Assembly (NCBI GenBank): GCA_947650365.1
Contig: OX393555.1
Location: 16,666,251-16,730,250, forward strand
Source: Chamaelirium japonicum
Taxonomy: Eukaryota > Streptophyta > Magnoliopsida > Liliales > Melanthiaceae
Direction: 5' to 3'
Length of the DNA: 64,000 nt
The position numbers were made by a program, and so were the translations under genes. Shown piece by piece: positions 4,701 through 53,116 of the stretch. The notes beneath the pieces are model-generated. The model had not been told where the DNA came from. It was given only the letters and a program-made list of their open reading frames with translations, and did not search any database. Every line of letters starts with the position of its first letter. Within the stretch, counting starts at the first letter, position 1.

Positions 4701-5244
4701 AGCCTTCAAAGGCTCCAGACAGTGACGAGAGGAAGATGTCTGTCATCACCTCGCCTTCTAGCACAATGTCCATGGTCGCTAGTTCGTTCTGGAACCCAAA
4801 CATTTTCATCATATGTTCCCGAACCAGCGTTCCATTGGACATCTTAGTGCCGACGAGTTTCTTGATGGTAAGGTATCGCGTAATGCGATTGTGACCTTCA
4901 AACATCTCCTTCAGATACAACATCATATCAGAAGCGTCGGGCATCTCCTCGACTTGCTTCTGCAGAGTTGTTTGCAAGGATGCTATTATATAGCATTTAC
5001 ATATCTCATTAGATTCCTACCAGTCAGTGAATGCCTTTAACTGTGCCTCTGTGGCATTGGGTCCTGGCAAATCTGGCTCAGGGTCATTCAGGGCTGACAT
5101 GTGTTTACCTATCCTTAAGACTAGGTACAGGTTGCGCTTCCAGTCCTCATAGTTGGGACCGGTAAGTTTGTGGTTATTTAGGATAGCGGACAGGGGGTCT
5201 AACTTGGTCATCTGAAAATAAAAGACTGAATATATGAGATGCAT
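1791..5244 (-). pseudogene. Copia A gag-pol polyprotein, broken
   Basis: One reading frame from about 5244 (or ATG at 5211) encodes the retrotransposon polyprotein. A TAG at 5019-5017 interrupts gag, and the frame resumes in phase immediately after it. Numbered from 4977: zinc knuckle CFRCGQKGHWKKDC about 173-186; protease DSG about 218; GAG-pre-integrase HLRLGH about 360 and CESC about 391; integrase D about 420, D about 484, E about 520; reverse transcriptase about 752-1000 with YVDD about 918-921. The frame crosses into the inverted LTR at residue 1062 (base 1790), so RNase H is absent and the last 60 residues are LTR-derived. The enzyme domains are otherwise uninterrupted, suggesting fairly recent loss. 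It cannot move on its own. Confidence 0.92.
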
Positions 5245-11874: not shown

Positions 11875-12393
11875 TAAGGGAATCTCGGGATTTCAACGCT
11901 GGGTTGCAATCCAATTTATTATCCAGAATCTCCTATCTGGATGTTGTATCATTAGGCACTTTTATACATTGATCAGCATATGAAAAGTTATTAACACTTT
12001 CCTCTTAGGATGTGTTATTTTGGGCGAAAATAAGAGTGGAAATGGATCGATTTGTTAACTTTGTTTCCATTTTCATTATTCTTTTCATTTTAAGTCATTG
12101 GAAAGGAATCAATCTACGGTCTTCATTTCCTACTGTGGGCATCGAAATTAACCCACGGGTCGAACCCGATTTGTACACGAAAAATAGGCCCGCACTCAAC
12201 GGCCTTCGGGTCGAACCCGACTCGCCCATGCGCACTCGACCCGCGTGCAAACTCGGCTCGCGCGCCGCAGCCCAACTCAAAGTAAGCGGGTCCCACCGGA
12301 CCCACTACCCGAACACAAAGAGGGGAGGGCTACCGGCCCCCCTTCTAGAAAGCCGTGCCCCCCTCCTCATGGAGAGGTGGGGCCGGCCATAAG

Positions 12394-12430
<37 letters not shown>

Positions 12431-12744
12431 GAAAAAGAAATCAAAACCGCCTCGATGCGGGGGGAGGTGGCGTGGACGTCTACGCAGCCGTAGATCCGCG
12501 ACGATCCCTTGATCCAACGGACAAGATGACATTGTGTCGCCATCCGATCCAAAAGTGCAACAAAAATAATAACTCAATCTTTAAAGGATCGAGTCACATC
12601 TGGCCCGTAACCACCCCAACTAAAAAGGAGGGGATCGGGTTTGTTTCCTTGGATAAAGGAACAATATCTTGATGGTTATGGGGGGAGATATCGGATGAAA
12701 CAAAAAGATTTCAGCCATATCTCCCCCAACCGCCCCCCTTTGCC

Positions 12745-12752
12745 TATAAATA
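12745..12752 (+). promoter_or_regulatory. TATA box of Tat 5' LTR
   Basis: TATAAATA in the context GCCTATAAATAGAGGGGG, a strong plant TATA consensus, conserved in the other LTR at 27555-27562. It would start the genomic RNA about 30 bp downstream, in the AAGGCACAAAGGGTC region. Confidence 0.75.
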
Positions 12753-13129
12753 GAGGGGGTGGGGGAAGGCACAAAGGGTCCGAAAGCCGAAGACGAAAGA
12801 GCTCCGCAAGAGAAGCTCCAACGCTCGACGACCGAAGGCTTCACGAGGCACGGCAAGCACGTCCTATGGGAATCCTTGGCCCTTCAAGTCCTCATCAACG
12901 TGAAGACCTTGCACTCGAAGGTCAAAGCTTCGACTCCTCGCACGAAGAAGAAAGCGTGGAGAAGAAGACCCGGAACCGTCATCACCCGATTGCTCCAACG
13001 ATCTTCATCAGCTCCGAAGACGCCATAAGCAAAGGCCGGAGAAGAAGATCGAAGCCGACAACGCCCGTCGTCTTCAATCAAGGCATCGACTCCTCGCACG
13101 AAGAAGAAAGCCGGGAGAAGAAGGCCTGA

Positions 13130-13300
13130 AGCCGGTGCTACCCCTGCCGTCTTCGTCAACAAAAGCCGACGCTACAACCGTCGCACGGAAGCCGGTGCTA
13201 CCCCTGCCGTCTTCATCAACAAAAGTCGACGCTACAACCGTCGTACGAGGATCGGTGCTACCCCCGTCGAAAAGCCAAGCCGACGCCACAACCGTCGAGG
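13130..13300 (+). repeat. 60-bp tandem repeat in LTR
   Basis: Units starting GAAGCCGGTGCTACCCC at about 13130 and 13190, with a diverged third at about 13250. The same array is in the 3' LTR from about 27940, so it was present before insertion. Confidence 0.85.
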
Positions 13301-13983
13301 AAGCTGAAAGAATAAAGAAGCCTTGAAGAAGTAGCCATCGCCGTTTGAGAAGAAGATCAAGTCAAAGCTGAAGTCAAAGCCAACGCCAGAAGCCAAAGCA
13401 GACGCACTGGTAAAGCCCGTGCCAAAGCAACGCACGTGCCGAAGCCAAGCAACTACGCCGGTCACGAGCAAAGCACCGCACGTTCTAGCCGATACGACAC
13501 AAAGTCCGGAAGAACTAAAGCATCGCAAGTCTCTACCCGCCTACGTTCAAGCGCAAGCGCCAAAGCAAAGCAAACGCCAGAGCCACGCCAAAGCTACGCC
13601 AAAGCCGAAAGCTAAAGCCAAAGCTGACGCCAAAAACACGATCGACGCCGCGAACCGACGATCAAGGACGCCGAGGTCGAGCAAGGATCGAGGAAGACAC
13701 GAAGACCGAGGAACGAAGCCCAAAGCCTCCCTAGCTGAGAAAGCACGAAGCACGGAAGGGACAAAAATCAACGGCCGATATTCCTTAGCCTCTCAAGAAA
13801 CCCTCACCCTGTAAAGACCTCTGTCCTGGGCAACCCCTTCAGAGCTCTCGCACGAATACCACGTGGAGACGCGGATCAAAGGGACCCTCCAGAGGATCTC
13901 TCCCACAATCTCCTGATCAAAAATTTGTAATCTCGTGTGATCCGCAACAAAGACGACCCGAATCTTTTTCTGCGTCCACAGAT

Positions 13984-14004
13984 TTATGGCACGCCCGGTG
14001 GGAC
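13984..14004 (+). other. Probable primer-binding site of Tat element
   Basis: Directly after the 5' LTR lies TTATGGCACGCCCGGTGGGA. The position suits a primer site and resembles the GGCGCCC-type sites of other Tat elements. I could not assign a tRNA by eye. Confidence 0.45.
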
Positions 14005-14052
14005 CTCCTCTCCTTTCATCCGTACGTTTGAAGGAGTTGCTTCAAGTTCGCC

Positions 14053-15450
14053 ATGGCCGGAACGAATGATGATACGTTTGCTCCAACAAGCCTCTCACCT
14101 ATCGCCGAGTCTCCACTACTCCAACACGGTGATCCAGAAAACTCGGAGGATGTCATTCCCCCGGTAGTACGCGTCTACACTCGGCGTACTCAAACTCTTG
14201 CGGACTTCTTCACGCCAGAAACTGCTGCCGAAGATGCCCGCCAAGGTGCCAATGAGGCCTTGGTGCATGAAGAAATGAGCCTCAATCCTGGAACATCTGT
14301 CCAGAAATTTGGGGAGGACCAGCCCCAACCCCGAACCCGTTCGGGTTCTCCAGCGGACTTTGCACCTCCCTTGCCGGGGGCAAACATCCGTCATCAAGCA
14401 GAAGCAAGTCAGCGTAACTATATCTCCGACGACGATGGCGAGAGTGCGGGCATGCAACATCGAGACGTCCTGTGACATCATCCTCCGTCCGCTCTCCAGC
14501 TCCAAGTCATGCAAATGGGTGAACACATGGCTCAGCTCACCCGACTAATGGAAGAGAAAGATCGTCACATCAACACCTTGCTTCAAAGGCTGAGTGTCAG
14601 GGATGTCGCAACATTCGGTCAACCTCCTGCTTCTCCAGTAGCTGCTCCAACCCCGTCTCCAACTCCTGCTCTTGCAGAAGTTGGCCCGGCAACACTAGCA
14701 ACTACTCCTGCACTTTCCTCGGCTCTCGTGCCAGTCTCGGTGGCCGCGCAACCTTTAGTGGCAGCAACGATGAATGCCCAGCAAATACAATCACTAGTGG
14801 CTGACATGATGCGTTCCCACGGCGGCAGCCTGCCTCCGATTACGGCGGCATATTCAAAGCCTTACACCATAAGGATCCAACAGCTGCGCTTCCCTACCGG
14901 GTTCCAGCCACCAAAGTTTCAACACTTTGACGGAAAGGGGAACCCAAGGCAACACATTGCCCACTTCGTCGAAACTTGCAACAACGCCGGCACATACGGC
15001 GATGAGATGGTGAAGCAGTTCGTTCGCACACTCAAAGGTAATGCTTTTGACTGGTATGTTGATCTCCCTCCAGGATCCATCGACAGCTGGGATCAGATGG
15101 AGAGGGAATTCCTCAACCGCTTCTACAACACTCGGCGTATCATTAGCATGACCGAGCTTACTGCCGTCAAGCAAAGGAAGGACGAATCAGTAATCGACTA
15201 CATCGATCGATGAAGGAATCTCGCCCTGAATTCACGAGACCGTTTGTCGGAAGACTCGGCTATCGAGATGTGCACCCAAGGCATGCACTGGGGCTTACTC
15301 TACATCCTCAAGGGGATCAAGCCTCGGTCCTTCGAAGAACTCGCAACTCGAGCCCACGACATGGAGCTCAGCTTAGCAAATCGCGGGGACTCAAAGACCA
15401 AAGACTTCCTAAAGGTGGAAAAGAAAGACAAACCGCCGGCACCCAAATCA
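14053..15450 (+). pseudogene. Tat gag, N-terminal part, two in-frame stops
   Basis: One frame from ATG 14053 encodes the capsid protein. It is interrupted by TGA at 14473-14475 and TGA at 15211-15213 and stays in phase across both. The capsid core spans about 14900-15400 (FPTGFQPPKFQHFDGKGNP, then FDWYVDLPPGSIDSWDQME, LNRFYNTRR), the usual retrotransposon gag fold. An Ala/Pro/Thr-rich linker precedes it (14600-14780). Near 15450 the frame shifts: this frame meets TAA at 15499-15501, while the next frame continues the protein. The second TGA sits where relatives have Trp, and the first could derive from CGA. Confidence 0.88.
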
Positions 15451-17026
15451 AAGCAAGTCCGACATCGCCTCGGCCTCCAAGCCACTCAAAATCAGCGGTA
15501 AGTCGGATCAAGAAAAGGGAGCTGTCATACCACCGCCTCCACCCCAAAGACAGTCGAAGATGACTCTAGAAGAACTCGAGGCCAAAGAGTATCCCTTTGC
15601 AGACTCGGAAGTCTCCTCCATGTTCGATCAACTGCTACAAGAAAAGATGATCGAGCTTTCTCCTTCAAAAAGGCCCGAACAGATGCATCGTGTCAACGAT
15701 CCGCTCTTCTGCAAATACCATCGGCTGGTTAGCCATCCTATTGAGAAATGTTTCGTCTTCAAAGAAAAGATCATGGCGCTCGCAAAGCAAGGAAAAATTG
15801 AGATCAACTCCAGCGACGTTGCAACAGCAAACATGACGTCCATCACCTTCGGTTCGTTTCAACCAGTACTCGTTGCTGCCCACCAGAGAAGGCCCAAGTT
15901 GCGCATCAATTGCCAAAGACCAATTGCGAAGTTAGCTCCACGACGGAAAGTCTCAAGACGACAACTGTACGCTCCTAAGCTCGCTGAGGAAGAAACGTCA
16001 CTGCCCTGGGGGCAACCGTCGCCTACATTGACGTCTCTCTCAAACAAAGCTATGTCCCAACGGAATCTCCAGACAAGGTACGAGCAAGGAGACCCGGAGG
16101 TCGGTCTGTTAGGCCAGCCCTCAGGTAAATTCGACTACTACGTCCTCTATTCCAGACCTTCGCCTGTCTCAATAGAAGAAATCAAGCCCACCGGCTGGGA
16201 GTCAGAAGGCGAACCACCAAGGTCCCCAGAGGAGCAAGGCTCCCCGACTCATGGAGAACCCATAAATCTCCAGACAAGGTACGAGCAAGGAGACCCGGAG
16301 GTCGGTCTGTTAGGCCAGCCTTCAGGTAAATTCGACTACTACGTTCTCTATTCCAAACCTTCGCCTGTCTCAATAGAAGAAATCAAGCCCACCGGCTGGG
16401 AGTCAGAAGGTGAACCACCAAGGTCCCCAGAGGAGCAGGTCTCCCCGACCCATGAAGAACCTACAGCTGCCACTCCAGACCTTCACCTTGGTAACGAAGA
16501 ATCCACTGATGAAGATGCATGGGTCATGTTGCCTCGCAGACGAAGGCCATGGATGACAAGAAGTCGCAAGCTCGATCGGGTAACAAGAAAGCTTCCGGAA
16601 CGAAGAACTTACAAAAAGAAAAGCAAAGCTCCAGGAAGGAAGGCGTTCAAAGTACCGCCAGCAGATCCTGATGATCTCCTCCTACAAAACCCTCCAGAAC
16701 CGACAACGTTGCAAGAGTTCTTCCCCGATTACTTCCTCCCAGCTAATCAGCAGCACGAAGCCTCCTGTTGCATGGTTGAGATTCACGTGGCACCAGAAGA
16801 AGAAGATAGGATCAAGCCTTCCAAAGAAAGCAACACCGACAACGAGGAGGATGATTCCGACAAAGACGGTACTGCTGCTTGCGACGAGGCAATCCTGCAC
16901 TTGCCACTTATAGAAGCACTACACCTCCCAGAGAAATCTCGCCTAGCAATGGCCGAGGCTTTGACAGACCCAGACAGTTACAAAAGAAAGAAGAAAAACA
17001 TCGAGAACGACAAAACTATTGTCTAA
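15451..17026 (+). pseudogene. Tat gag C-terminal / nucleocapsid region
   Basis: Open frame in phase with the downstream pol, clearly usable from at least ATG 15560. It has a Cys/His cluster, FCKYHRLVSHPIEKC (residues about 49-63 from 15560), typical of Tat gag proteins in place of a classic zinc knuckle. Then follow a 67-codon tandem duplication (16064-16465), a basic stretch (about 16540-16650) and an acidic tail. TAA at 17024-17026 separates it from the protease, but the frame continues without shift, so this is probably a nonsense change in one gag-pro-pol frame. Confidence 0.8.
16064..16465 (+). repeat. 201-bp tandem duplication within gag
   Basis: Units at 16064-16264 and 16265-16465, nearly identical and a whole number of codons (67), each beginning NLQTRYEQGDPEVGLLGQP. 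Reading frame is preserved. High similarity suggests a recent duplication. Confidence 0.93.
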
Positions 17027-19372
17027 TGTAACGCAGCAATAACTTTCTCGGACGAAGATCTGCAGCTCGGAGCACGACTGCACAATCGACCTGTCTATGT
17101 CTCGGGATACATCAACGAGAAGCCGGTAAATCGAATCCTGTTGGACTGCGGCTCCGCCGTCAACATCATGCCTATCCAAACAATGCGCCAGCTTGGCATC
17201 ACCACCGACCAGCTCTCGCAAAGCCAGCTGGTCATTCAAGGGTTCAACCAAGGAGGACAGTCCACCATAGGGATCATTCGTCTAAAACTCTCTATCAGTC
17301 AGCTTGACACGACGGTTCTTTTCCACGTCATTGACTGTCAAACATCATATCACCTTTTGCTGGGAAGACCGTGGCTGCACGAAAACGGTGTCGTAGTGTC
17401 TACCTGGCACCAATGCCTCAAGTACTACGAGGAAGGTCTGGAAAAGTGCATTGTTGCAGACGACAAGCCATTCAATGAGGCTGAAACGCACCTCGCCGAT
17501 GCCAAATTTTACCAAGCAAAGGACCTTGTTGCAGAAGTCCTTCCAGCTAAAACTCCTCGAACTCAGAAAGCTAAAAGGATGGGGCAGGATGAAGCTCTGC
17601 CAACTCCAAATCCAGTACCACCATCTAAGGCGATACACGAAGCCAAAGAAGTGCTAGCGCTGAGACGAAGAATGCGCATCAGCTCCAAGCCAAGATCCAT
17701 GAAGCATACTCCATTACATGTCCAAGCTACGACAGTCTTACGCCTCACGCCTCAGTGGCTTCGCAAAGATGAACCACCACCTTTTGCCTCGCCAAAAGGG
17801 ATGGTCCAGCCGCTATCAGAAGCTAATGTCATCACTCTGCAAGAGATGACACTGCCACTACCTAGCTTGGGGCAAGCTTCAAGTTCGCCAAAACCCATAA
17901 ATCCCTTCGAATCCAGCCAACTCACATTCAAGCCAAAAGGAAGCTGGGGGCAAAATGCCGCCAAGCTGCTCTTCAAAGCTGGCTACGATAAAGACAGTGC
18001 TGCACATATGAGTACGCTTCTGCCAGCTCCAATACCACACGGAATGACTAAGACTCAAGCCCATTTACTCCAGGGTGGCGAGCAGATCCCACCAAATCGG
18101 CGAGGCATCGGCTCTCGTCAAACCCCGATGGTCATCAAGATAACAGGAGAGAAGACCTTCACCTCTAACTACATTGAGGTGAAGTTGGTAGATGAAGCGG
18201 AAGAGGGATCGTCAGCCTCCGATGCACACTCCACCAATATCATTCATCCCGCTACAAAGGGCGCCAAAAGAAGGCGATATCGAGCTCGGCGTCGAACAAT
18301 ACCTCAAAAGCAAAAGAAGAGCGTCACAAACCAGGCAAGTCAAAATCCCATATCAGTATTCAAAAGACTTGGGCCAATCGGACAAGCAAAGCGAAGGTCA
18401 GTATTCGACCGTTTGGGAAAGCCACCCACTGAGGTGAGAAAAATCATTCCCACCCACCCACCCATGTCATTCTTTCAAACTGCCAATGTTCCCGATATCA
18501 TTCTGGTCTCTCTTAATCATATCACAATTGCGGACTCCTCGGTCGATGGCACTTCTACTTCGGACGACAAGCTGCCAGATGCACCGCCAGTCCTCGAAGA
18601 AGGGGGGCAATCTACCGTCGATGATCTGAAAGAAATCAACTTGGGGACACAGGAGGATCCTCGACCCACATTCGTAAGTGCACTCCTGACTCCTGAAGAG
18701 GAGGCCGCATACATCAAGCTACTCCAAGAATACAGAGATGTCTTCGCATGGTCCTACAAGGAAATGCCGGGACTTGACCCCAAGATTGCAGTACACCAGC
18801 TTGCTGTCAAACATGGAGCTAGCGCCATCAAGCAAGGACAAAGACGCTACCGGCCGAAACTGGTACCGCAAATAGAGGGCGAAGTCAACAAGCTCATTGA
18901 AGCCAGCTTTATCCGAGAAGTTAAGTATCCAACGTGGATCTCCAGCGTGGTCCCAGTCAAGAAGAAGAACGGCCAGATCAGAGTATGTGTGGACTTCAGG
19001 GACTTAAACAATGCATGCCCCAAAGATGACTTCCCACTGCCAATCGCAGAACTAATGGTGGATGCGACAACAGGCCATGAAGCACTAACCTTTATGGATG
19101 GATCCTCGGGCTACAACCAGATCCGGATGGCGCCCAAAGACGAAGAGCTTACGGCATTCCGCACGCCAAAAGGGATCTACTGCTACAAAGTCATGCCTTT
19201 CGGCTTGAAGAACGCAGGAGCCACTTACCAACGAGCCATGCAAAAAATTTTCGACGATATCCTTCATCAGAATGTAGAATGCTACGTCGACGACCTCGTG
19301 GTAAAATCAAGACAAAAGTCAACACATCTTCAAGACCTCGAGCTAATCTTCAAGCGACTTCGAAGGTACTAA
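17027..19372 (+). pseudogene. Tat protease and reverse transcriptase (N-part)
   Basis: Continues the gag frame after the TAA. The aspartic protease active site reads LLDCGSAVNIMP at 17134-17170, the D-x-G-S-A-V-N form usual in Tat elements. A long linker follows (17500-18650). Reverse transcriptase starts near 18840: KKNGQIRVCVDFRDLN, the motif A region TFMDGSSGYNQI, FGLKNAGATYQRAM, and catalytic YVDD at about 19283-19294. TAA at 19370-19372 stops the frame 25 codons after YVDD, and the frame resumes in phase. No frameshift is seen here. Confidence 0.92.
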
Positions 19373-21910
19373 CTCCGCATGAACCCGCTTAAATGTGCAT
19401 TTGGGGTCTCCTCGGAAAAGTTTCTCGGCTTTGTCGTACGCCATCGAGGCATCGAGATAGATCAAACCAAGATAGATGCTATCCTCAATATGCCAATCCC
19501 GAAAACCGTACGAGACCTCCGAGGTCTCCAGGGCCATCTAGCATATATCAGAAGGTTTATCGCCAACTTAGCTGGAAAATGCAGGCCCTTCAATCGCCTA
19601 ATGAAGAAAGGAGCATCATTCAAGTGGGATGAAGCTTGTCAGGAAGCCCTCCAAAACATCAGGGATTACTTACTCAAGCCCCCGGTTCTGACAGCACCAG
19701 TTCAAGGGAAGCCATTGGTCCTTTACATCAGCGCCCAGGAGCAGTCCTTGGGGGCACTCATGGCTCAAGACAACGAGCTAGGCAAGGAAACAGCATGCTA
19801 CTATTTGAGCCGCACTCTCATCGGCGCGGAGCTAAACTACTCCCCGATTAAGAAGGTCTGTCTGGCGCTCATCTTCGCTACAAAAAAGCTGCGACACTAT
19901 ATGTTAGCTCACGCCATCAGGCTCATCTCAAAAGCCGACCCGCTCAAATACATCATGTCGAGACCAGTACTCTCCGGACGTTTGGCCAAGTGGGCTTTGC
20001 TCCTCCTTGAGTTTGACATCACCTTTGTCCCTCGTAAAGCGGTCAAAGGTCAAGCTCTCACAGACTTCCTAGCAGAATACCCCCTTCCAGCAGAATGGGA
20101 ACTATCGGAAGATCTCCCGGACGAAGAAGTATTCTGCATCGACATCGCCCCTTCTTGGAAAATGTTCTTCGACGGTGCGGCCAGGCAAGACGTAGCAGGA
20201 GCAGGAGTTATCTTCGTCACACCAAACGACGAAGTACTTCCCTTCTCATTTCTATTATCAGAGCCATGCTCCAACAACAGGGCGGAATATCAAGCTCTGA
20301 TCATTGGCCTCGAACTCGCCAATGATATGAAACTCCAAGGGCTCATAATTTTCGGCGACTCTCAACTCGTCATTCAGCAAATATTGGGAGCATACGAGGT
20401 CAACAAAGAAGATCTCGTGCCATTGCACCTACGAGCTCTGAAACTCCTTGGTACACTCAAAGATGCTTCAATCCAGCATGTTCCCAGAAACCTTAATCAG
20501 CAGGCTGATGCGCTAGCAAATTTGGCGGCGACACTCCCGTTCCCAGAAAGAAGCCAACTCATCGTCCCTATCTGTAAGAGGATGGTGATCACCGAGGAAG
20601 ACCTCCCTATGGGAATCCCGGACCAAGTCAATGCAGTACACGTTCTCGTGACTGACGAGCTAGATTGGAGACAACCATTCATAGACTTTCTTGTCCACGG
20701 GAAACTCCCTGAAGATCCAAAGCGTAAGGTCGACATTCGTCGGCGGTCTCTGAAATTCTTCCACTTCAACAACGAGTTGTACCGTCGAAGCTACGATGGT
20801 GCGCTCCTGAGGTGTCTTGCAAAAGAAGAAGCGGAAACAGCACTAGAAGAAGTCCATGCCGGGATCTGTGGCTCACATCAGTCCGGTCCAAAGCTGCACT
20901 TCCGCATCAGGCGGATGGGGTACTACTGGCCCACTATGATCAAGGACTCCCTCGAGTTTACAAAAAGATGCAACACTTGCCAGCTGTATGGCGACTACAT
21001 CCGTCAGCCTCCGGAACCTTTGCATCCAACCATCGCATCATGGCCCTTCGATGGATGGGGACTCGATATTGTCGGTCCGCTACCCAAGTCATCCAAGCAG
21101 CATCTTTATATCCTGGCGGCAACAGATTACTTCTCCAAGTGGGCTGAGGCAGTACCATTGCGAGAAGTTACCAGGCACTCTGTCATCAACTTCATCCAGA
21201 ACGACATCATCTTCCGGTACGGCATCCCTCGCTATATCGTTACGGACAACGGGAAGCAATTCAAGAACGCCGCTGTCAGCCAATTTTGTGCCAAGTTCGA
21301 TATCAAGGAAAGGTGTTCAACCATGTACAACGCCTCTGCCAACGGCCTAGCTGAAGCTTTCAACAAAACACTCTGCAAACTTTTGGAGAAAGTCGTCTCA
21401 AAGTCGAAGAAAGATTGGCATGAACGCATGGGCGAAGCGCTATGGGCATATCGCACCTCTTTTCGCACGCCAACACAGGCGACTCCGTACTTGCTGGTAT
21501 ACGGAGTAGAAGCTGTCCTCCCACTTGAACTCCAGATCCCGTCACTCAGGATAGCCGTCCAGGAAGGCCTCGTCAACGGCGACAACGCTCAACTTCGCCT
21601 AGCAGAATTGGAAGCCCTGGATGAGAAGCGCCTCGAAGCCCAGCAACGCCTGGAATGCTACCAAGCCAGATTGACCCGAGCCTTCAACAAAAGGATTCGC
21701 CCTCGATCCTTCCAGAAAGGAGAATTGGTGCTCGCAGTCAAACGCCCCATCATCCTTTCGCATCGAGGAGGAAAGAAGTTCGACGCCAAGTGGGATGGAC
21801 CGCACGTTGTCAAAGAGGTCTACTCCAACGGCGCATATCTTCTCACCACGCCAGAAGGTCTTACACTCGGCCCCATCAATGGCAAGTACCTCAAAAGGTA
21901 CTATGCCTAA
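19373..21910 (+). pseudogene. Tat RT thumb, two RNase H domains, integrase
   Basis: Open to a TAA at 21908-21910 (843 aa from ATG 19379). Residues about 1-100 are the RT thumb/connection. 105-235 are a Ty3-type RNase H whose catalytic Asp region is degenerate (LYISAQEQS). 258-390 are a second, plant/archaeal-type RNase H with D265 (FFDGA), E303 (RAEYQ), D327 (GDSQ) and D377 (QQADALA), so apparently intact. 470-790 are integrase with an HHCC finger (H493, H500, C531, C534) and D563, D623, E659. The C-terminal region binds DNA in relatives. Dual RNase H is diagnostic of the Tat lineage. The only visible lesion is the upstream stop at 19370. Confidence 0.93.
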
Positions 21911-21929
21911 AAGCAGGGCTACTTTCCTT

Positions 21930-21931
<2 letters not shown>

Positions 21932-21966
<35 letters not shown>
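21932..21966 (+). repeat. 35-nt poly(A) tract after pol
   Basis: An uninterrupted run of A begins 21 bp after the pol stop codon, inside the element and far from any mRNA end. It separates pol from the antisense gene. Confidence 0.95.
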
Positions 21967-21969
<3 letters not shown>

Positions 21970-23153
21970 AACTACGTGTGACTTGATCCTTCTCAGTAAG
22001 GTACGTAGGCAGCCTGTAAAGGTTCAGTCCAAACAAAAAAAACACAACCAAGCTCTGCCATTCCAGAAGACAAGTCAAAAAAATAGATGCATGATATTAA
22101 GTTATCACCAGATAAAGAAAAGCAGAACTACAAGTCTGTTCAGCAAAAATGACAAGAAAGAAAAGGAAATGCGACATTGCTAGTAAAGCGAATTGAGTTC
22201 TTTGAGACGTTGGAGTAGCTCGCCGTCAGTAACCTCCATGCGCTGCAACTCTGAAGACCGAGAAGCTACCCGCTCCCGATGCGTCGCCAGCTCGATACGC
22301 TGCTTCGCCAGGTCTGCTCCAAAAGACTTCTCGATCATCTCAGCTTTCTCAAAAGATGCGCGAGCAGCCTCCAGCGTCTTCCGTGCCCGAACAAGGCTCG
22401 CGGTAGCAAGTGCATGCTGCTCCTCCAGTCGACGCTCCTCATTCTCAGCTTTTGCTAGTATCGAAGGAAGGTCATCTTCCATCGAAGCCCGTTTCAAGCA
22501 ATGAGCTTCACTATCCGCCAAGAGAACACGCATATGTGCCTCAAACAAAGAGCCATCTACCTGGAAGGCCGTCAGGTTCTTGCAAAACTCAGGCCCCTCG
22601 AGAACCCACCAGCTGCTCAAAGCGTCAAAGCCCTCTTCCTGGAAGGGTGCGAGCGTCGTCTGGATATACTTCCGACAGCTCTCCAAAAGAAGCACAGAGA
22701 GAAGGTCTCGCAAACTGCACTTTCTCCTGTCAGCCTCTGAGTGCACAGGCAAGGTGGGCTCCGGTCCTGAAGGCTCAAGTGTAGGAACTGCCTCCTGGAC
22801 CATCGCCGTGATAACAGTCAGCGGAACCACCGGAGCCGAAGGAGGAGACACAGGCAAACCTTCTGACAAAACGACTGCGGGAGTAGCCTCTGCCGGAGTA
22901 GCGGACCTAGCTGGAGGAGTCTGTTCTCTCCCTACACTGGAGACCTCATCCTCCTCCCCAAAGCCCAACTGCTCCACGTCAATATCATCCAGGTTGACAG
23001 CACTGCCGGCAAAATCTGCTCCACACGCTCCTAAAAGCTCCAAGTTATCCTAGGGAACATCCAGCCCGCCACCTTCAATCAATGTTGCTCTGATGGGAGA
23101 GCACTCCTGCCCAACCCCCTTCGGGGCAGACTCGCAGTCCGGTCCAGCAGACC

Positions 23154-23238
23154 CTGCCAAAATAAGAGCTGGACAACTCAGCCAACGAAGTAAGAGTACA
23201 AGCATAGAAATTCATGAGAAACTAGAAACAAGATATAC
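23154..23238 (-). other. Intron in the antisense PMD gene
   Basis: 85 bp, donor CAG|GTATAT and acceptor TTTTGGCAG|G. Removing it joins the exon 2 frame to the coiled-coil frame, leaving one TAG (23052-23050) between them. On the retrotransposon's own sense RNA these signals are reversed, so they cannot be spliced there. Confidence 0.75.
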
Positions 23239-25446
23239 CTGCAGCGTCCGATGAAGTTACCCCAGAAGGAGGGATTACCTCATCGGCAAAAAGCCCTGGC
23301 TCTCCCTCTCGAGCTGGCCCTGCCTCGCCAGCACCAGTCAAAGCTGCCTCACACAAGAGGTCCAACTTTCTCCTCTTGGGAAAAGCACACCCACTCCAAG
23401 AAGCCTGAGTCTCAGGAAGGCTCTGAACCTTGGAGGACGGAGCCATCTCAACTTCTTGCACAGAAAGTGAAGCTTGGGAAGTACTCTCTCGACGGCCACA
23501 AGATTTCTCTGACCATCGCTCCTCGGACCAAAGACGGCGATCCTCTGACCCCGCCAAAGAGTCAAAAGGAAAGTCAGCCCGCTCGCTGCTAGCAAGGACG
23601 TCTAGCGGAAGGCTAGCCAAGAGGGGAAGCACTGACCCGTTGACCCAGCGGCAATACTCAGGAGTTGCAGCATCCTTGCCGCCCGACTTAATCCCCGGTG
23701 AAAAAGTACACCCAGTAAATCGATCGTAAAGTGCTCCCTAGAGGCGGTACGCCTCCTGCGAAGTGTAACGTAACCGCAGGCGCAAAGGAGTCCCAGGCAA
23801 CTCCTGCCGAAAACCCTACTGGCGAGCGAACCGGTGGGGAGAGTACCGCGCCACTTCCACTACATCCCCACGACGCCAAACGAGATACCCGGGTCTGCAA
23901 CTCACCATACTCCAGTACAAGTGATCGGGCATCTCCTCCCCATCACATACCAAGGATCTTGTAGAAGGTGCAAGTGCGTTCTCTGATACAAATTCAAAGT
24001 CTGAAGGGCCCATACGTCTTAAACACTCTCGAGCACTGGGCCTCGGACGCTCCCATGCGTAATAAGCATTCATCACACCTCCCACGCAAGGAAGGAAGGG
24101 CACTGAAGTTGAAGGTCCACGCGCTGCAAAGATCCCCTTCGGAAAGTGAAGCCCAATCCAACCATAGAGGTAATGCAGGGGGCAAAAGGAACTGGCTCTG
24201 CCTACTTCCCCTCTTGCATTACCCGCACTCGATAAACTCCAGTAGGTGCCGCTAAGCCCGCCATACAACGAGCAGAGGATCGCCGGCGCCAGGTTAAGAA
24301 ACTCTCCAGTCACCATCCGAGCAGCTGCAAGGAAGGTCCCAGGGCGTATCACATCCCCTTCCCAGGGTAAAGCAAAGCGACAGAGAAAAAGTACCAACCC
24401 CGCTGACCAGTAAACAGCACGCCAGGCATCGCTGCATTCTTCAAGTCCCAAAACTTCCCAGGGACGTTGCGCCCCGGCCATAGAGCACCACTCTTTCTTC
24501 AGAGATTCAATCGGTCGCCGGAAGGTGCCAGGCGCCGGTCTCTTTGACGATGCATATCTCCACATCGGGTGACTCGAAGGGGGAGCGTGACGATACTCTC
24601 CTCGAAACCAGAAGTCCACCCAATCCGAGTGAAGTACCCGGTCTGACCGCTCGTGCGCCGCTATAATAGCATACGCCTTAAAAAGCAAAAGGCAGAAGCT
24701 AGAAGACTCATCTGGGTCCGTCAAAACCTCCAGAGAAGGAACCTCCTCCTGATAGTAGCTCCGAACTTCTGGACACCCAGAGATGACGTGCATGTCACGA
24801 AGGGTGATCCCGATTTCACCAGCTCCGGTCAAAAAGGTATTGGTCTCAGGGCACCACTGCTCATACAGAGCCCGGTACATACCGTCTGGTCGACTGTACT
24901 CCCAACAAGCTGGCTCCACAAAACCTCGCCAAACGCTCTATCCCTGGCTCTGCCTCCAACACGCCGGATAGCTCTCTCATCCAGTCCCGAAAACCCCCCA
25001 GATACGTGACATCTCCACGCGATTGAATTCCCACACCCCATCGCGTACGGCGGGAGCATATCTTCAAAGCAACAACAGGGACCGGAACTGACTCCTCGCC
25101 AGTATGATGGAACGGTAGCCCCAAACTAGGCCGGACGATTTGCCGAGAAGATCCTTCGTCAGTAAGGATACGCTCGCCAAGTTTCAACACTCGACAAGAG
25201 CCGTCGGTCACGTCGTCCTCGCAAACTCGCTCGTGCGTCAAAAGCTGAAGTACTGACAGTCTGGTCTCCTGTCTCGAAGCACGATGGTGGAAGACTTGCG
25301 CGAAAGGAAAGCGAAGATGCGTACTCCCGCGAGAGACCGCATCGACAATCCAGCCGGAACTTGGAAAGCTCTCGTAACTACGAGACCTGAAAAAGAAAGA
25401 AGACAAAGCCCAAGTTAGATAGATTCCACATGCAGAAACGAAGAAA

Positions 25447-25712
25447 GCAGGGGGGGCCTTGAGCAAATAAAAAAGAAGAGAGGGGGGGTCACGGCAAAAA
25501 GCCGCGACCCTCTCCTTCTCTCTCCTGTTAAAATTAGCAGGGGGGCCTTGAGAAAATAAAAAAGAAAAGAGGGGGGTCATGGCAAAAAGCCGCGACCCTC
25601 TCCTTCTCTCTCCTGTTAAAGTTAGCAGGGGGGCCTCGAGCGAATAAAGAAAAATAGAGGGGGGTCGTGGCAAAAAGCCATGACCCCCTCTCTCTATCTC
25701 TCCTATTAAACA
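25447..25712. repeat. Three tandem ~88-bp repeats
   Basis: Units start GCAGGGGGG at 25447, 25537 and 25625. Each contains GGCAAAAAGCC and a pyrimidine-rich CTCTCCTTCTCTCTCCTG. They lie in the proposed first intron of the antisense gene. Confidence 0.92.
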
Positions 25713-25839
25713 TGCAGGGGGGGTGCTATCGTCCTCGACCAACACCGGCCACCGCATCCCCCGCCGGCCCCCGCAGCCCCGGCCGTCTCCGCCGCCGACC
25801 TCCGCGGCCCCGGACGCCTCCTCCGCGCCCGCACCGCGC

Positions 25840-26340
25840 CGCCGCGCGCCGCTGCTGCACCGGCCCCCGCGCGCACGACCGTGCCGCCCCGGTCGCCGGC
25901 CCCCCTGCCTCTGCCGCTGCCGCTGCTGCGCCGGCCCCCGCGCGAGCGACCACGCCACCACCGGCCACCGTGCCGCCGCGCGCCGCTGCTGCACCGGCCC
26001 CCGCGCGTGCGACCACGCCACCGTCGCTGCCGCTGCTGCGCCGGCCCACCGCGCCCCGCGAGCACTCCGCTGCCGCTGTCGCGCTGGCCCCCGCGCACGC
26101 GACCATGCCACCACCGGCCATCGCGCCCCGCGCGCACTCCGCTGTCGCTGCCGCGCTGGCCCCCGCGCGCGCGACCACACCACCACCGGCCACCGCGCCG
26201 CTGCGCGCCGCTGCTGCACCGGCCCCCGTACGCCCGCACGCCGCTGCTGCACCGGCCCCCACACCGTGCGCCGCCGCTGCACCGGCCCCCGCGCCGTGCG
26301 CCGCTGCTGCACCGGCCCCTGCGCCCCGCTCCCTCCGGCC
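25840..26340. repeat. GC-rich minisatellite
   Basis: Imperfect tandem units of roughly 55-60 bp built from CCGCTGCTGCACCGGCCCC and GCGCGACCACGCCACCACC. GC content is very high, and long ORFs occur in all frames of both strands, giving Ala/Pro/Arg-rich translations. These ORFs are a composition artefact and are not annotated as genes. Confidence 0.85.
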
Positions 26341-26863
26341 TGCAGCCCCGTCGCGCCCCGCCTCCAGCCGCACCCTGCCGCTACCGCTGCCGCGCCCACG
26401 CCCGCACGCCGGCCGAACCCAGCAGCCCCCGGCCGCGCCCCTCCTCCAGCCCGCGCGCCGGCCTCACCATGCAGCCCCCGGCCGCGTCCCGTCTCCGGCT
26501 CGCACGCCGGCCGCACCCCGCAGCCCCCGGCCAAACCTCCACCGGCCCCTGCGCCCTCCCACAACCCACCTTGCGAAGAAGAAGAAGAAGAAGAAGAAGG
26601 AGGAGGATCACCTCGCCGGCAGCCCTCCGCCCTCCATGGGCCGTCGGTCTCCTCTTCTCCGCGAACCCCATGGCGTGACTGCCTTCATCTTCTGCGGCAT
26701 CGTCGCAAAGCGAGAAACCCTAGCAGAGCTTTCGCCTTCAAGCCGCCGGGAATTGCTGATAATGAAGAGAAACGAAAACGGGGGGCCTTTTAAAGACCTA
26801 ATCCCACACGAATACGCGACTCAAGTCCAAGCGCTACGCGTTTCCCACGGGCGCACTCGAACT

Positions 26864-26875
26864 TGAGGGGGCACT
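26864..26875 (+). other. Polypurine tract of Tat element
   Basis: TGAGGGGGCACT lies directly before the 3' LTR, with a G-rich core, in the position where plus-strand DNA priming occurs in LTR retrotransposons. Confidence 0.55.
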
Positions 26876-28779
26876 TGTGGGCATCGAAATTAACCCACGG
26901 GTCGAACCCGATTTGTACACGAAAAATAGGCCCGCACTCAACGGCCTTCGGGTCGAACCCGACTCGCCCATGCAACTTGGGCCCGCACACAACGGCCCAC
27001 ATGCGAAAATCTGGCCCATGCACAACAGCCCACATGCGCACTCGACCCGCGTGCAAACTCGGCTCGCGCGCCGCAGCCCAACTCAAAGTAAGCGGGTCCC
27101 ACCGGACCCGCTACCCGAACACAAAGAGGGGGGGGGGCCCACTGGCCCCCCTTCTAGAAAACCGTGCCCCCTCCTCATGGAGAGGTGGGGCCGGCCATAA
27201 AGAAAAAAAAAAGAAAAAGAAAAAGGAAATAAAAGAAAAAGAAAAAGAAATCAAAACCGCCTCGATGCGGGGGGAGGTGGCGTGGACGTCTACGCAGCCG
27301 TAGATCCGCGACGATCCCTCGATCCAACGGATAAGATGACGTTGTGTCGCCATCCGATCCAAAAGTGCAACAAAAATAACAACTCAATCTTTAAAGGATC
27401 GAGTCACATCTGGCCCGTAACCACCCCAACTAAAAAGGAGGGGATCGGGTTTGTTTCCTTGGATAAAGGAACAATATCTTGATGGTTATGGGGGGAGATA
27501 TCAGATGAAACAAAAAGATTTCAGCCATATCTCCCCCAACCACCCCCCTTTGCCTATAAATAGAGGGGGTGGGGGAAGGCACAAAGGGTCCGAAAGCCGA
27601 AGACGAAAGAGCTCCGCAAGAGAAGCTCCAACGCTCGACGACCGAAGGCTTCACGAGGCACGACAAGCACGTCCTACAGGAATTCTTGGCCCTTCAAGTC
27701 CTCATCAACGTGAAGACCTTGCACTCGAAGGTCAAAGCTTCGACTCCTCGCACGAAGAAGAAAGCGTGAAGAAGAAGACCCGGAGCCGTCATCACCCGAT
27801 TGCTCCAACGATCTTCATCAGCTCCGAAGACGCCATAAGCAAAGGCCGGAGAAGAAGATCGAAGCTGACAACACCCGTCGTCTTCAATCAAGGCATCGAC
27901 TCCTCGCACGAAGAAGAAAGCCGGGAGAAGAAGGCCTGAAGCCGGTGCTACCCCTGCCGTCTTCGTCAACAAAAGCCGACGCTACAACCGTCGCACGGAA
28001 GCCGGTGCTACCCCTGCCGTCTTCATCAACAAAAGTCGACGCTACAACCGTCGTACGAAGATCAGTGCTACCCCCGTCGAAAAGCCAAGCCGACGCCACA
28101 ACCGTCGAGGAAGCTGAAAGAATAAAGAAGCCTTGAAGAAGTAGCCATCGCCGTTTGAGAAGAAGATCAAGTCAAAGCTGAAGTCAAAGCCAACGCCAGA
28201 AGCCAAAGCAGACGCACCGGTAAAGCCCGTGCCAAAGCAACGCACGTGCCGAAGCCAAGCAACTACGCCGGTCACGATCAAAGCACCGCACGTTCTAGCC
28301 GATACGACGCGAAGTCCGGAAGAACTAAAGCATCGCAAGTCTCTACCCGCCTACGTTCAAGCGCAAGCGCCAAAGCAAAGCAAACGCCAGAGCCATGCCA
28401 AAGCCGAAAGCTAAAGCCAAAGCTGACGCCAAAAACACGATCGACGCCGCGAACCGACGATCAAGGATGCCGAGGTCAAGCAAGGATCGAGGAAGACACG
28501 AAGACCGAGGAACGAAGCCCAAAGCCTCCCTAGCCGAGAAAGCGCGAAGCACGGAAGGGACAAAAATCAACGGCCGATATTCCTTAGCCTCTCAAGAAAC
28601 CCTCACCCTGTAAAGACCTCTGTCCTGGGCAACCCCTTCAGAGCTCTCGCACGAATACCACGTGGAGACGCGGATCAAAGGGACCCTCCAAAGGATCTCT
28701 CCCACAATCTCCTGATCAAAAATTTGTAATCTCGTGTGATCCGCAACAAAGACGACCCGAATCTTTCTCTGTGTCCACA
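26876..28779 (+). mobile_element. Tat element 3' LTR
   Basis: 1904 bp, highly similar to 12134-13980, followed by the CCTAC target duplication. It carries 64 bp absent from the 5' LTR (about 26974-27037), the same TATA box (27555-27562) and the same 60-bp tandem repeat (from about 27940). Long ORFs shared by both LTRs are low-complexity and not genes. Confidence 0.95.
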
Positions 28780-28784
28780 CCTAC

Positions 28785-29929: not shown

Positions 29930-31085
29930 TACCACCCACACCACCAACCCCAGCACCAGCATCATCATCATCACCATCAGCAGCAGCAATCGGGGCGGGA
30001 GAACTCCGGCTCGCATTTTTCTTTTTTTTTAATGGAGATCACATCCCCTGTTTTTTGGAATGGTGATAAGGGATCAAAGTTTTGAATGGGATCGCTGATT
30101 TTTTTGGTTTTAAATTCAAGCTTTTTTTTTTTTTAGAATGGGATCGCAGTCCCTGTTTGGTTTTTTTTAGAATGAGATCACACCACCAACCCCAACCCCA
30201 TTACCATCATCATCATCATCACCATCAGCAGCAGCAGCCAGGGCAGGAGAACTCCGGCTCGCCGATCGGCAGCCGAGGCGGAGGAGGCGACGAAGGAGGG
30301 GGGGCACCGATCTGCAGCATTTCCATTTTTTTTTTAAATGGAGATCACAGCCCCTGTTTTTTGGAATGGTGATAAGGGATCAAAGTTTTGAATGGGATCG
30401 CTGATTTTTTTGGTTTTAAATTCAAGCCCTTTTTTTTTTTAGAATGGGATCACAGCCCCTGTTTGGTTTCTTTAGAATGGGATCACACCACCAACCCCAA
30501 CCCCAACCCCAGCACCAACATCATCATCATCACCATCAGCAGTCGGGGCGGGAGAACTTTGGCTCGCCGATCGACAGCCAAGGCGGAGGAGGCGGCGAAG
30601 GAGGGGGGGCACCGATCAGCAGTATTTCCCTTTTTTTTCTAATGGAGATCACAACCCTATTTTTTGGAATGGTGATCAGGGATCAAAGTTTTGAATGGGA
30701 TCGCTGATTTTTTTGGTTTTAAATTTAAGCTTTTCTTTTTTTAGAATGGGATTGCAGCCCCTGTTTGGTTTTTTTTAGAATGGGATCACACCACCAACCC
30801 CAACCCCAGTACTACCATCATCATCATCACCATCAGTAGCAGCAGTAGCAGTTGGGGCGGGAGAACTCCGGCTCGCCGATCAGTAGCTGAGGCGGAGGAG
30901 GTGGCGAAGGAGGGGGGGCACCGATCGGCATAATTTCTTTTTTTTTTTAATGGAGATCACAGCTCCTGTTTTTTGGAATGGTGATAAGGGATCAAAGTTT
31001 TGGATGGGATCCTTGATTTTTTTGGTTTTAAACTCAAACTATTTTTTTTAGAATGGGATCGCAGCCCTTGTTTGGTTTTTTTTTT
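29930..31085 (+). repeat. ~305-bp tandem array, four units
   Basis: The landmark GGGCGGGAGAACTCCGGCTCG (or a close variant) occurs near 29993, 30240, 30546 and 30855. Each unit has a CACCACCAACCCCAACCCC / (CAT)n / (CAG)n segment, then G-rich and T-rich parts with AATGGAGATCACA. In one frame the CAT/CAG part reads as a His/Gln-rich peptide, so the ancestor may be a captured gene segment. No intact gene is present. Confidence 0.88.
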
Positions 31086-40900: not shown

Positions 40901-43900
40901 TAGATAGTTTAGAAAATAGTTGTTTCTTAGAGGTCTACGCTAGTAGATAGTATAGAAATGTTATTTGTGTTCCTAAGTGTGTCTATGTTTTATTTTACAT
41001 AGTTTCTTTGCAAAATATAATTAATTAATTGGTATTTCCTTCATTTCTATGTTTAGAATGTTGTGTTTCAGCTGAGAATACATAGAAATACATGTTATGT
41101 GAAGCTCTACACCTCTAGATAGTGTAGAAATTTGTGTATTTATGCTGGATAGTTGATATATGTTTATCTAGATGTTCATTTGCACAATTCCGTCAAAAAC
41201 TAAAGATTTGGATCATTTCTATGTCTAGACTAATGTGCATACGCACATCATGCATAATAATGCATGCTATGTGAAGCTCTATGCCCCTAGAGTGTAGAAA
41301 TTTGATCCAAGTGTTGCAAACTGTTTTTATATGCTTGTTTTAGGATTGTCCATAGCTTCGTTGATAAATTTCATCAAAAATGTATATTTCCACTGTTTAA
41401 TTTCATCAAAAAAATCTATATTTCCTCCACCGTTTATATAAAACAACAATATTCTACAGTATCGAAAGATTTCTACGCTATATTTCCATATCCAGAAGTG
41501 TCGATTTTTTTGGTCGATTTGAATTTCTAGAACTTCGATCTTTACTAAAACCGGATTTTCCAAAACCCAATACAACTTATTGGAACACCCCAAATGTCAT
41601 CTTCACCAATGTTTAAAAAGGCGAAAGGCGTACCGAGGTGTTTTTCCTCTAGAGAGGCGAGGCGTAAGCCTCAAGGCGCATTGAGGCGTAAGCCTCAAAT
41701 TTTTTTGAGGCGTTTTGGTAAAAAAAATTAAAGAAGAAAAACTTCAGAATAAATACTATTATTGAATGTGTAATAATAATAATTGAACTAGATATGCATA
41801 ATAAATCACAATGTATTAGAAAATATCTTATATGACACGATTGAGCACTCCTCGAGCAATCTAACAACAAAATAAAAAGTCAAATTGCTCAAACACGCTT
41901 AATTCTTTAATTTTCAAGATAATAATTAAAGTATCAACAAACAAGTAATAACAAACAATAAAATCTGAATATAGGACATGTTGGGAAAAACGTATTGGAT
42001 TATTCATTTACCCCCCTATATATAGGCATAATTGGAGGTTGGGATAGAGACGGGGAAATCTCCTATCCCATGAATCTAGGGGTATTTATCCGGTGGGCAT
42101 CCATATCTGATGCAACCACCGTTTCATAACACTCCCCCTTGGATGACCACCATTTATCAATGATTGCCTCATTAAAACCTTTGATGGAAAAACCCAGTGG
42201 GAAAAATCCTATCAAAGGAAAAAGAGTACAATCTTAGTTCTTCAGGAACTATGGTGGGTGCGCATAATGCTGCCTCGTTAAAACCTTTGATGGGAAAACC
42301 CTGTGGGAAAAACCCTACCAAAGGAAAAAGAGTACAGCGCGCATAAATTTGCATCTTCAGGATGCCCTCCGCCTAACTATTACATTATCACTATTACATC
42401 TCTCCCCCTGATTATATCTCCTCCTGATTACATTATTACATCTCTCCCCCTGATTATATCTCCTCCTTATTACATCAATTTGTTTGGTGATTGAGCCGTC
42501 GCAGTCCGATGCCGTACACCATCTTCTGGAAAGTAGACTTGGGCAAAGCTTTGGTGAAAAGATCCGCAAGATTGTCGCTTGACCGTACTTGCTTGACTTC
42601 AATCTCCCTTTTCTTCTGAAGTTCGTGGGTGTAGAAAAACTTTGGTGAGATGTGCTTTGTTCGATCTCCCTTGATGAAGCCAGCTTGAATTTGAGCAATA
42701 CATGCGGCATTATCTTCGTGGATAACTGTCGGCTCTTTGGTAACTGATGCCAACTGGCAACTGCTTCTGATATGCTGCACAAGTGACCTCAACCATACGC
42801 ATTCTCTACTTGCTTCATGCAGGGCTAATATTTCAGCATGGTTCGACGATGTAGCCACAAGTGTTTGTTTGGTCGATCTCCAAGAAATAGCTGCATTGTT
42901 ATTCAAAAATACATACCCTGTTTGGGATCGACCCTTATGGGGGTCAGAGAGAAAACCTGAATCTGCATAGCCAATCAAGTGAGGAGTACCACAAGAATAA
43001 AACAATCCCATATCAGTGGTTCCTCGCAAATATCTAAATATTTGCTTTATTCCATTCCAATGCCTAAGAGTCGGTTCTGAACTGTATCTAGCCAATAGAT
43101 TAACAGAAAAACATATATCTGGTCTAGTACATTGAGCTAAATACAATAAAGCACCAATAGCACTTAAATACGGTTTTTCAGAACCAAGAATAGTTTCATG
43201 TTCCTCTTTAGGTCTAAATGGATCTTTATGAATATCAAGAGGTCTAACTACCATGGGAGTGCTTAGTGGGTGACATTTATCCATATTAAATTTCTTTAAC
43301 AAATTTTCAGTATATAATGATTGATGTACTAAAATCCCACTAGAGTTACGCTCGATCTGCAGGCCGAGATAAAACTTAGTATCACCAAGTTCTTTCATTT
43401 CAAACTCCCTTTTTAGATAATCAGAAGTTTTCTTGAGCTCTTCAGGAGTCCCAATCAAGTTTATGTCATCCACATAAACTGCAATTATAGTAAATCCATT
43501 TTCTGATTTCTTTATGAAAACACATGGGCATATGGGATCATTCTTATAACCTTCCCTAGACAAGTATTCACTAAGGCGATTGTACCACATCCTTCCGGAT
43601 TGCTTCAGGCCGTACAATGCTCGTCTTAGTTTTATCAAGTGCGCACTCTTTGATGTTGCTTCAGGCAACTTGAATCCTTCTGGGACTTTTAATGTTGCTT
43701 CAGGCAACTTGAATCCTTCTGGGATTTTCATATAAATATCTGTGTCTAGGTTCCCGTATAGATATGCCGTTACGACATCCATTAGTCTCATCTCTAGTTT
43801 TTCAGAAACTGTGAGACTAATGAGATCTAAATGTAACTATATCCATAACAGGGGAATAGGTCTCTTCATAATCAATTCCGGGTTTCTGCAGGAATCCCTG

Positions 43901-52651: not shown

Positions 52652-53116
52652 TTCGTGCTTAAGTGGAGAGAGAGACAGAGTGGCGTGCCAGTTGTTTGAA
52701 GTGGTTCAAGGGGATTTTCAGTCATAGATTTGTAATTTTATCTCATTATGTATCTGATCTGAGGGAAATGTTTTTTCTTTTATATTTTTCCAATCCGCTG
52801 GTTAGATACTGAACAATCGATGGCGATCCAATGTCGGGGAGGGTGCGGTCTGATCTACTCTCTTTGCCTGAGCAGCTATTCTCTGCCCTTCAGTTCATCT
52901 GTACTGCTAAGCTTAGGCCGGCAGCTTGGTTTAGCTTTGCTATTGGGTTGCCTGAGGTCCTTCGGTTGGTTCATCTGTCCGATGCCCGATCTTTCTGAGG
53001 TCTTTTTTGTAGAGTTATTTCCACCTATCATAGCTCTGCTCCTTCGCCGGCTGGCAAGCAAAGGAACGGATGTGATTGGCCACGGCATTGGCTCCAGCTT
53101 GGCACCTGATCACTGA
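52652..53116 (+). other. TRS33 3' untranslated and flanking region
   Basis: No further coding sequence recognised. A 98-codon ORF at 52820-53116 has no recognisable domain. The next hAT MITE begins at 53117. Confidence 0.5.

Follow-up and report, generated by a model that had tools for sequence, protein, structure and literature searches.

A stretch of 64,000 nucleotides from Chamaelirium japonicum (assembly GCA_947650365.1, contig OX393555.1, positions 16,666,251 to 16,730,250 of the forward strand; hereafter the window, in whose numbering coordinates are given) contains a single decaying Ty3/gypsy retrotransposon of the Tat lineage. The opposite strand of this element harbours a gene whose product has a plant mobile domain (PMD). 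According to our analysis, this antisense gene is a resident, selected accessory gene of the element family and not single-copy cargo, and its protein is conserved with roughly the stringency seen for the integrase of the element. The best explanation, which we consider probable, is a high-copy Tat family with a resident three-exon antisense PMD gene, the product of which would have some 1,070 residues.

The gene is located between the integrase, whose open reading frame (ORF) ends at 21910, and the 3' long terminal repeat (LTR; 26876-28779). A PMD-type domain had been proposed in an earlier reading of the letters of the window (hereafter the original prediction), and the domain was indeed recovered by Pfam on the ORF 24919-23816(-) (PF10536, E 1.5e-13, 51.1 bits, cut-off 34.9). 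When TAG is read as a residue, the match extends to profile position 299 of 347 (E 3.1e-17), and the PMD frame runs beyond two in-frame TAG codons as far as 23222. An 85-bp intron with GT..AG borders (intron 2, 23154-23238(-), T-rich with 47% T) links this frame in phase 1 to that of the putative exon 3 (22180-23153(-)), which is acidic and then helix-prone, contains one in-frame TAG and ends with the stop codon 22182-22180. The putative exon 2 (23239-25386(-)) comprises an N-terminal part, the PMD (on 24919-23816 and beyond) and a basic patch, KRRKL. The portion of the protein encoded upstream of about 24.9 kb is in a different frame, and this copy therefore has a frame shift there. With this frame shift, two TAG codons in the PMD exon and one in exon 3, the window copy is unable to make the full protein and is a dead pseudogene. 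This state had been missed by the original prediction, in whose FARQ-x-GFRQELPG block, assigned to the PMD, the "x" is an in-frame stop.

Chance open frames within a GC-rich repeat are one alternative, and the large frames over 25.7-26.6 kb, which coincide with tandem repeats rich in GC, are indeed likely to be spurious. For 22180-25386, however, a chance origin is refuted by the Pfam match, the intron, simulation and, as given below, the codon-position data and the copy survey, and for the gene as a whole we find it scarcely credible. In 1000 sequences simulated at first order and read on both strands, no stop-free stretch matched the 373 codons of the longest one observed (simulated maximum 360), while 287 codons were attained in 3 of the 1000.

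Other copies were surveyed in the genome of the same plant (1.52 Gb in 3253 contigs). Among 111 scored PMD matches, the best-scoring ones from 3296 candidates and the window's own counted, the matched stretch is stop-free in 103. Thirty copies, including that of the window, were read with 1.5 kb on either side of the PMD match; all 30 keep the GT at the start and the GCAG at the end of intron 2, which is 85 bp long in 28 of them, and GT..AG is likewise present in 11 of 13 copies that were retrieved with a non-coding query. The phase-consistent intron of the original prediction is thus upheld. In 15 of the 29 copies besides the window's, the spliced frame contains no stop between the exon-2 acceptor and the limit of the sequence read (991-993 codons), and the unspliced reading meets stops in every copy (1 to 22). 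After three more copies had been added, 27 of 32 were of standard length, and 16 of these 27 were open across the intron.

The same arrangement was found from the side of the integrase, for which 96 matches were taken from 21285 candidates. A PMD copy from the above list lies on the other strand, 1890-1952 bp downstream, in 39 of the 96 (window included), and a same-strand PMD within 10 kb in none. Ten of the 57 integrase matches without a listed PMD were checked by reading 360 bp at the expected site: the PMD is present in 8, one element is shortened and has the stretch upstream of the gene at this site, and one gave no match. Of the 49 copies examined, 47 thus have an antisense PMD next to the integrase, and the expectation that relatives carry the antisense ORF is therefore confirmed. 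These counts also bear on the idea that a host PMD gene was captured by one copy, or that an older host gene was hit by the insertion of an element. Introns are usual in host genes and PMD genes are present in host genomes, but neither scenario agrees with the 39 antisense PMD copies at one narrow range of distances, the lack of same-strand ones, or the 8 further elements with a PMD at the expected site. The copy survey thus rules out a host gene or single-copy cargo, an origin to which we give very little credence.

A different PMD-bearing repeat family, in which the PMD is apparently split by introns, was encountered at locus L075 (C7:15038900-15042900) and has at least 12 near-alike matches. 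In the one 4-kb sample of this family, the low-coordinate end of which is N, the PMD shows 50% similarity over 32 residues to that of the window family, and similarity to exon 3 is unconvincing (best E 1.3).

Substitutions among the copies are far from random over the codon positions. The selection test left out the window copy (L001) and, among the 32 copies, the 5 that deviate from the standard length. Shared variable sites (variant in at least 2 of the 27 copies) number 94, 78 and 290 at codon positions 1, 2 and 3 (p 3e-38), and singleton variants 109, 102 and 136. Of the 85 intron sites, 23 vary in this shared manner, a rate equal to that of position 3 (p 0.71). Shared variants mostly predate insertion and arose in still-mobile copies, while singletons mostly postdate it. 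The position-3 skew persists in transversions alone (19, 13 and 39 shared sites), and methylation-driven C-to-T change is therefore not its cause.

Purifying selection between copies, a test of which was suggested with the original prediction, is also seen in the ratio of nonsynonymous to synonymous change (dN/dS). For 107 pairs of the 16 stop-free copies it is 0.058 in the PMD, 0.117 in the part before it, 0.275 in the part after it, 0.313 in exon 3 and 0.15 over the whole gene; stop codons were skipped, and the values exclude 13 of 120 pairs less than 3% apart, the 2 pairs less than 1% apart having a dN/dS of 1.46. The N-terminal part and exon 3 lay outside the PMD query and are still constrained. 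When an identical set of ten copies was compared, dN/dS was 0.066 for the PMD and 0.082 for the integrase region, with the integrase at its expected position in all ten and stops inside the integrase piece in four. As the constraint is as strong as that on the integrase, we argue that the gene belongs to the element's life cycle.

Constraint of this kind also speaks against a scenario in which the protein is incidental and only the antisense RNA counts, whether through double-stranded RNA, small interfering RNA or transcriptional interference with gag-pol. Antisense transcription is described for the corresponding region of Grande, together with a proposed double-stranded RNA role (PMC7264820). 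In the family studied here, however, codon positions 1 and 2 change about one-third as often as position 3, with the intron at the position-3 rate. Because such a bias shows constraint on the protein, a role of the RNA only is disfavoured and seems very improbable to us; an RNA role may exist alongside the protein.

Exon 2 shows constraint over its first 135 codons, yet the earliest Met that the 16 stop-free copies share is codon 136. The start must therefore lie upstream. A TATA-like box occurs 94-95 nt ahead of an ATG opening an Arg-rich frame in 19 of 20 copies, which were hand-picked, mostly for open frames, and are not a random sample; the remaining copy, L033, has a different 5' region. 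In the window the box reads TTTAAAAGG (26786-26794(-)) and is situated about 80 bp inside the 3' LTR, and the coding part of the putative exon 1 (26612-26700(-)) consists of the ATG and Arg-rich frame, 29 codons plus 2 nt long. After base 89 of the leader frame, GTGATC follows in 12 of 19 copies, in a phase that fits the acceptor at 25387. A donor at 26569 was rejected for misfit of phase, while that at 26611 fits in these 12 copies, the other 7 having GC. From the phase of the leader ATG and the fit of donor and acceptor we infer an exon 1, an intron 1 of 1225 bp (25387-26611(-); donor GAG/GTGATC, acceptor CTTTTTCAG) and exons 2 and 3, and thus a three-exon gene with a predicted product of about 1,070 residues. 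The putative intron 1 holds an 88-bp tandem repeat and GC-rich repeats, and its length ranges from 876 to 1367 bp across the 20 copies, as aligned. In the window, 25446-26532(-) is filled by the 88-bp repeats and several GC-rich minisatellites. The original prediction of a multi-exon gene with at least one intron and its own leader holds, with the correction that two introns are now proposed.

The predicted protein would have an Arg-rich start, followed by the PMD, the basic patch, an acidic stretch and a helix-prone end. In one open copy PF10536 scores 60.9 bits (cut-off 34.9), and a Pfam search of an open copy returned no family besides PMD. The patch KRRKL is present downstream of the PMD in 27 of 27 copies and is a possible nuclear localisation signal. 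Exon 3 starts with an acidic region (isoelectric point 4.05 for the first 155 residues, joined numbering) and ends with a helix-prone one (6 Pro/Gly per 123 residues). The coiled coil expected for this exon is supported in part by this helix-prone end, but the heptad signal is weak (p 0.003-0.57, depending on stretch and copy), and a Fourier heptad test gave p <0.05 in one of 16 test windows, which lay outside the C-terminal part. A scan of IMG/VR with the PMD yielded no match, and an AlphaFold model of the PMD piece computed without an alignment was not usable (mean predicted local distance difference test score, pLDDT, 38.4).

Several points weigh against this interpretation. Transcript, splicing and protein are predicted here from the DNA, and the exon-1 donor is GC rather than GT in 7 of 19 copies. 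Singletons, too, are slightly skewed to position 3 (p 0.013). The copies were chosen by similarity to the window PMD, which favours a low dN in this domain, and because the first copies had been found in this way, the codon test was repeated on the copies picked by a non-coding query (21967-22177). In this set, with the window copy (L051) and 2 of the 13 copies, which differ in length, dropped for the codon counts, shared sites in exon 3 number 12, 13 and 24 (p 0.017), a skew in the same direction but weaker. The PDB gave no match to the protein, and to our knowledge neither a fold nor a biochemical activity has been established for the PMD. The role in silencing considered next is suggested by kinship alone.

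We posit, tentatively, that the protein acts as a nuclear chromatin or transcription factor that would let the element escape or tune host silencing. Such a factor would act on, or mimic, the host PMD pathway (MAIN/MAIL1/PP7L), and counter-silencing by a PMD borne on a transposable element has been proposed before (PMC8616336). Transcription of the antisense gene would start from a promoter of its own, close to the inner edge of the 3' LTR, the transcript would then be spliced, and the protein would probably be nucleus-bound. With the same gene anatomy, the protein might instead serve transposition by carrying the preintegration complex into the nucleus, selecting the integration site or helping to assemble particles, the last exon then being a dimerising helix. 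A constraint matching that of the integrase is what core machinery should show, KRRKL is found in every one of the 27 copies, and the gene always adjoins the integrase in the copies having it. Yet the opposite strand and separate promoter split the gene from gag-pol expression, which is odd for a structural part, and most plant LTR elements are mobile without such a gene according to the literature, as far as it was covered. On balance, a role related to silencing appears the most likely of the two and a role in transposition, which we regard as rather doubtful, comes second. With more hesitation than for the silencing role itself, we suggest that Tat elements keep a spliced, cellular-type antisense gene with its promoter, in which the PMD would be a counterpart of the MAIN/MAIL1 silencing machinery and as strictly required for propagation as the integrase.

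The orientation of the gene offers a simple reason for the retention of introns by a retrotransposon. Because the gene is antisense, its introns read CT..AC on the genomic RNA and are left unspliced; they are not removed and are therefore kept through each round of reverse transcription, while introns in sense orientation would risk loss in retrotransposition. The function of the antisense extra ORFs of Tat elements, like that of the PMD, is called unknown in the literature covered in part here (PMC7264820, PMC11963269, PMC8616336). The functional question can now be tested in one high-copy family with an open spliced gene and a candidate promoter, for which the intron and the singletons provide a built-in negative control and the integrase a yardstick.

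The element itself is a complete LTR element (12134-28779) with a CCTAC target-site duplication on both flanks (12129-12133 and 28780-28784). The 5' LTR (12134-13980(+)) measures 1847 bp and the 3' LTR (+) 1904 bp, and the pair is identical at 1796 of 1835 aligned bases (97.9%), the differences being 37 transitions and 2 transversions. A polypurine-tract-like stretch, read by eye, precedes the 3' LTR (26862-26875(+)). Gag-pol (14509-21910(+)) is broken into several ORFs in this copy and comprises gag, reverse transcriptase, RNase H, a second, archaeal-type RNase H (RVT_3) and integrase. In one pol ORF, Pfam placed RT_RNaseH at 110-212, RVT_3 at 264-383, H2C2 at 482-537 and rve at 556-651; a second RNase H is characteristic of the Tat clade. 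Domain order and LTR coordinates thus substantiate the earlier placement of the antisense gene between pol and the 3' LTR of a Tat element. The reverse transcriptase is presumably close to that of Ogre. The order RNase H, second RNase H, integrase is given for two groups within the Tat clade, Ogre and Retand (PMC6317226). Within the gag-pol region, a near-perfect 197-bp direct duplication (16064-16461) is in frame in the window copy. Single open gag-pol frames, for example of 2621 and 2628 codons, surround the integrase in family copies, and the presence of a frame of about 2,620 codons in many copies suggests recent activity of the family.

Elsewhere in the window, a tandem array (30015-31083) whose repeat unit measures about 305 bp lies directly past the element. 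A nearly complete Copia-type gag-pol ORF of 1122 amino acids (RVT_2, E 5.2e-77) is found at 1609-4977(-), and a second, fragmented Copia element with gag, integrase and reverse transcriptase ORFs at 42475-47441(-). A TRAPP component domain (PF04051, E 1.2e-25) is encoded by an ORF at 52011-52727(+) that is probably an exon of a host gene.

PMDs in gypsy elements, antisense ORFs in Tat elements and, for Grande, an own promoter and a nuclear product are already known, and the "distinct cargo system" of the original prediction is accordingly not maintained. A three-exon antisense PMD gene, or its constraint in relation to the integrase, was not found in the partly covered literature, and we regard the novelty of the spliced antisense PMD architecture as provisional. 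PMD-A1/A2 proteins are carried by Ty3/gypsy elements, to which they are reported to be exclusive, and are spread among angiosperms (Ikeda et al., 2017, PMC5418596). The PMD of the window family is likewise encoded by a gypsy element; strand, introns and a last exon are not described in the portions of that paper covered. Ogre shares with the window family the Tat clade, the second RNase H between RNase H and integrase, a very long element with tandem repeats and a PMD extra ORF, the last of which is not decisive, as it occurs in 57% of Ogre elements (Neumann et al., 2019, PMC6317226). Ogre has two ORFs with an intron-like region between them, whereas open copies of the window family have a single gag-pol frame, and we therefore do not file the family as canonical Ogre.

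The aORF-3R of Retand, Grande and RIRE2 is antisense and located between pol and the 3' LTR, where tandem repeats occur as well (PMC11963269, PMC7264820), all of which applies to the window family. For gene23 of Grande, a separate promoter and a nuclear product are described (PMC7264820). The aORF-3R, however, encodes TRP28 (PF04195) in 61 of 63 clusters (PMC11963269), while the window family encodes a PMD instead and gave no match to TRP28 at E up to 1. Splicing of aORF-3R is not described in the portions of these papers covered, and the gene of the window family is predicted to be spliced. MAIN and MAIL1 are nuclear host PMD proteins acting in the silencing of transposable elements (PMC5418596, PMC7156037); they share the PMD but are products of host genes (PMD-C), whereas the PMD described here is borne by an element and followed by an additional C-terminal exon. 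A candidate for a protein that works alike is VANC, the anti-silencing protein of VANDAL elements (PMC5735166, PMC10398659). VANC belongs to DNA transposons, unlike the window family, and the two are likened by role, as element-encoded proteins that oppose, or in our case may oppose, silencing by the host.

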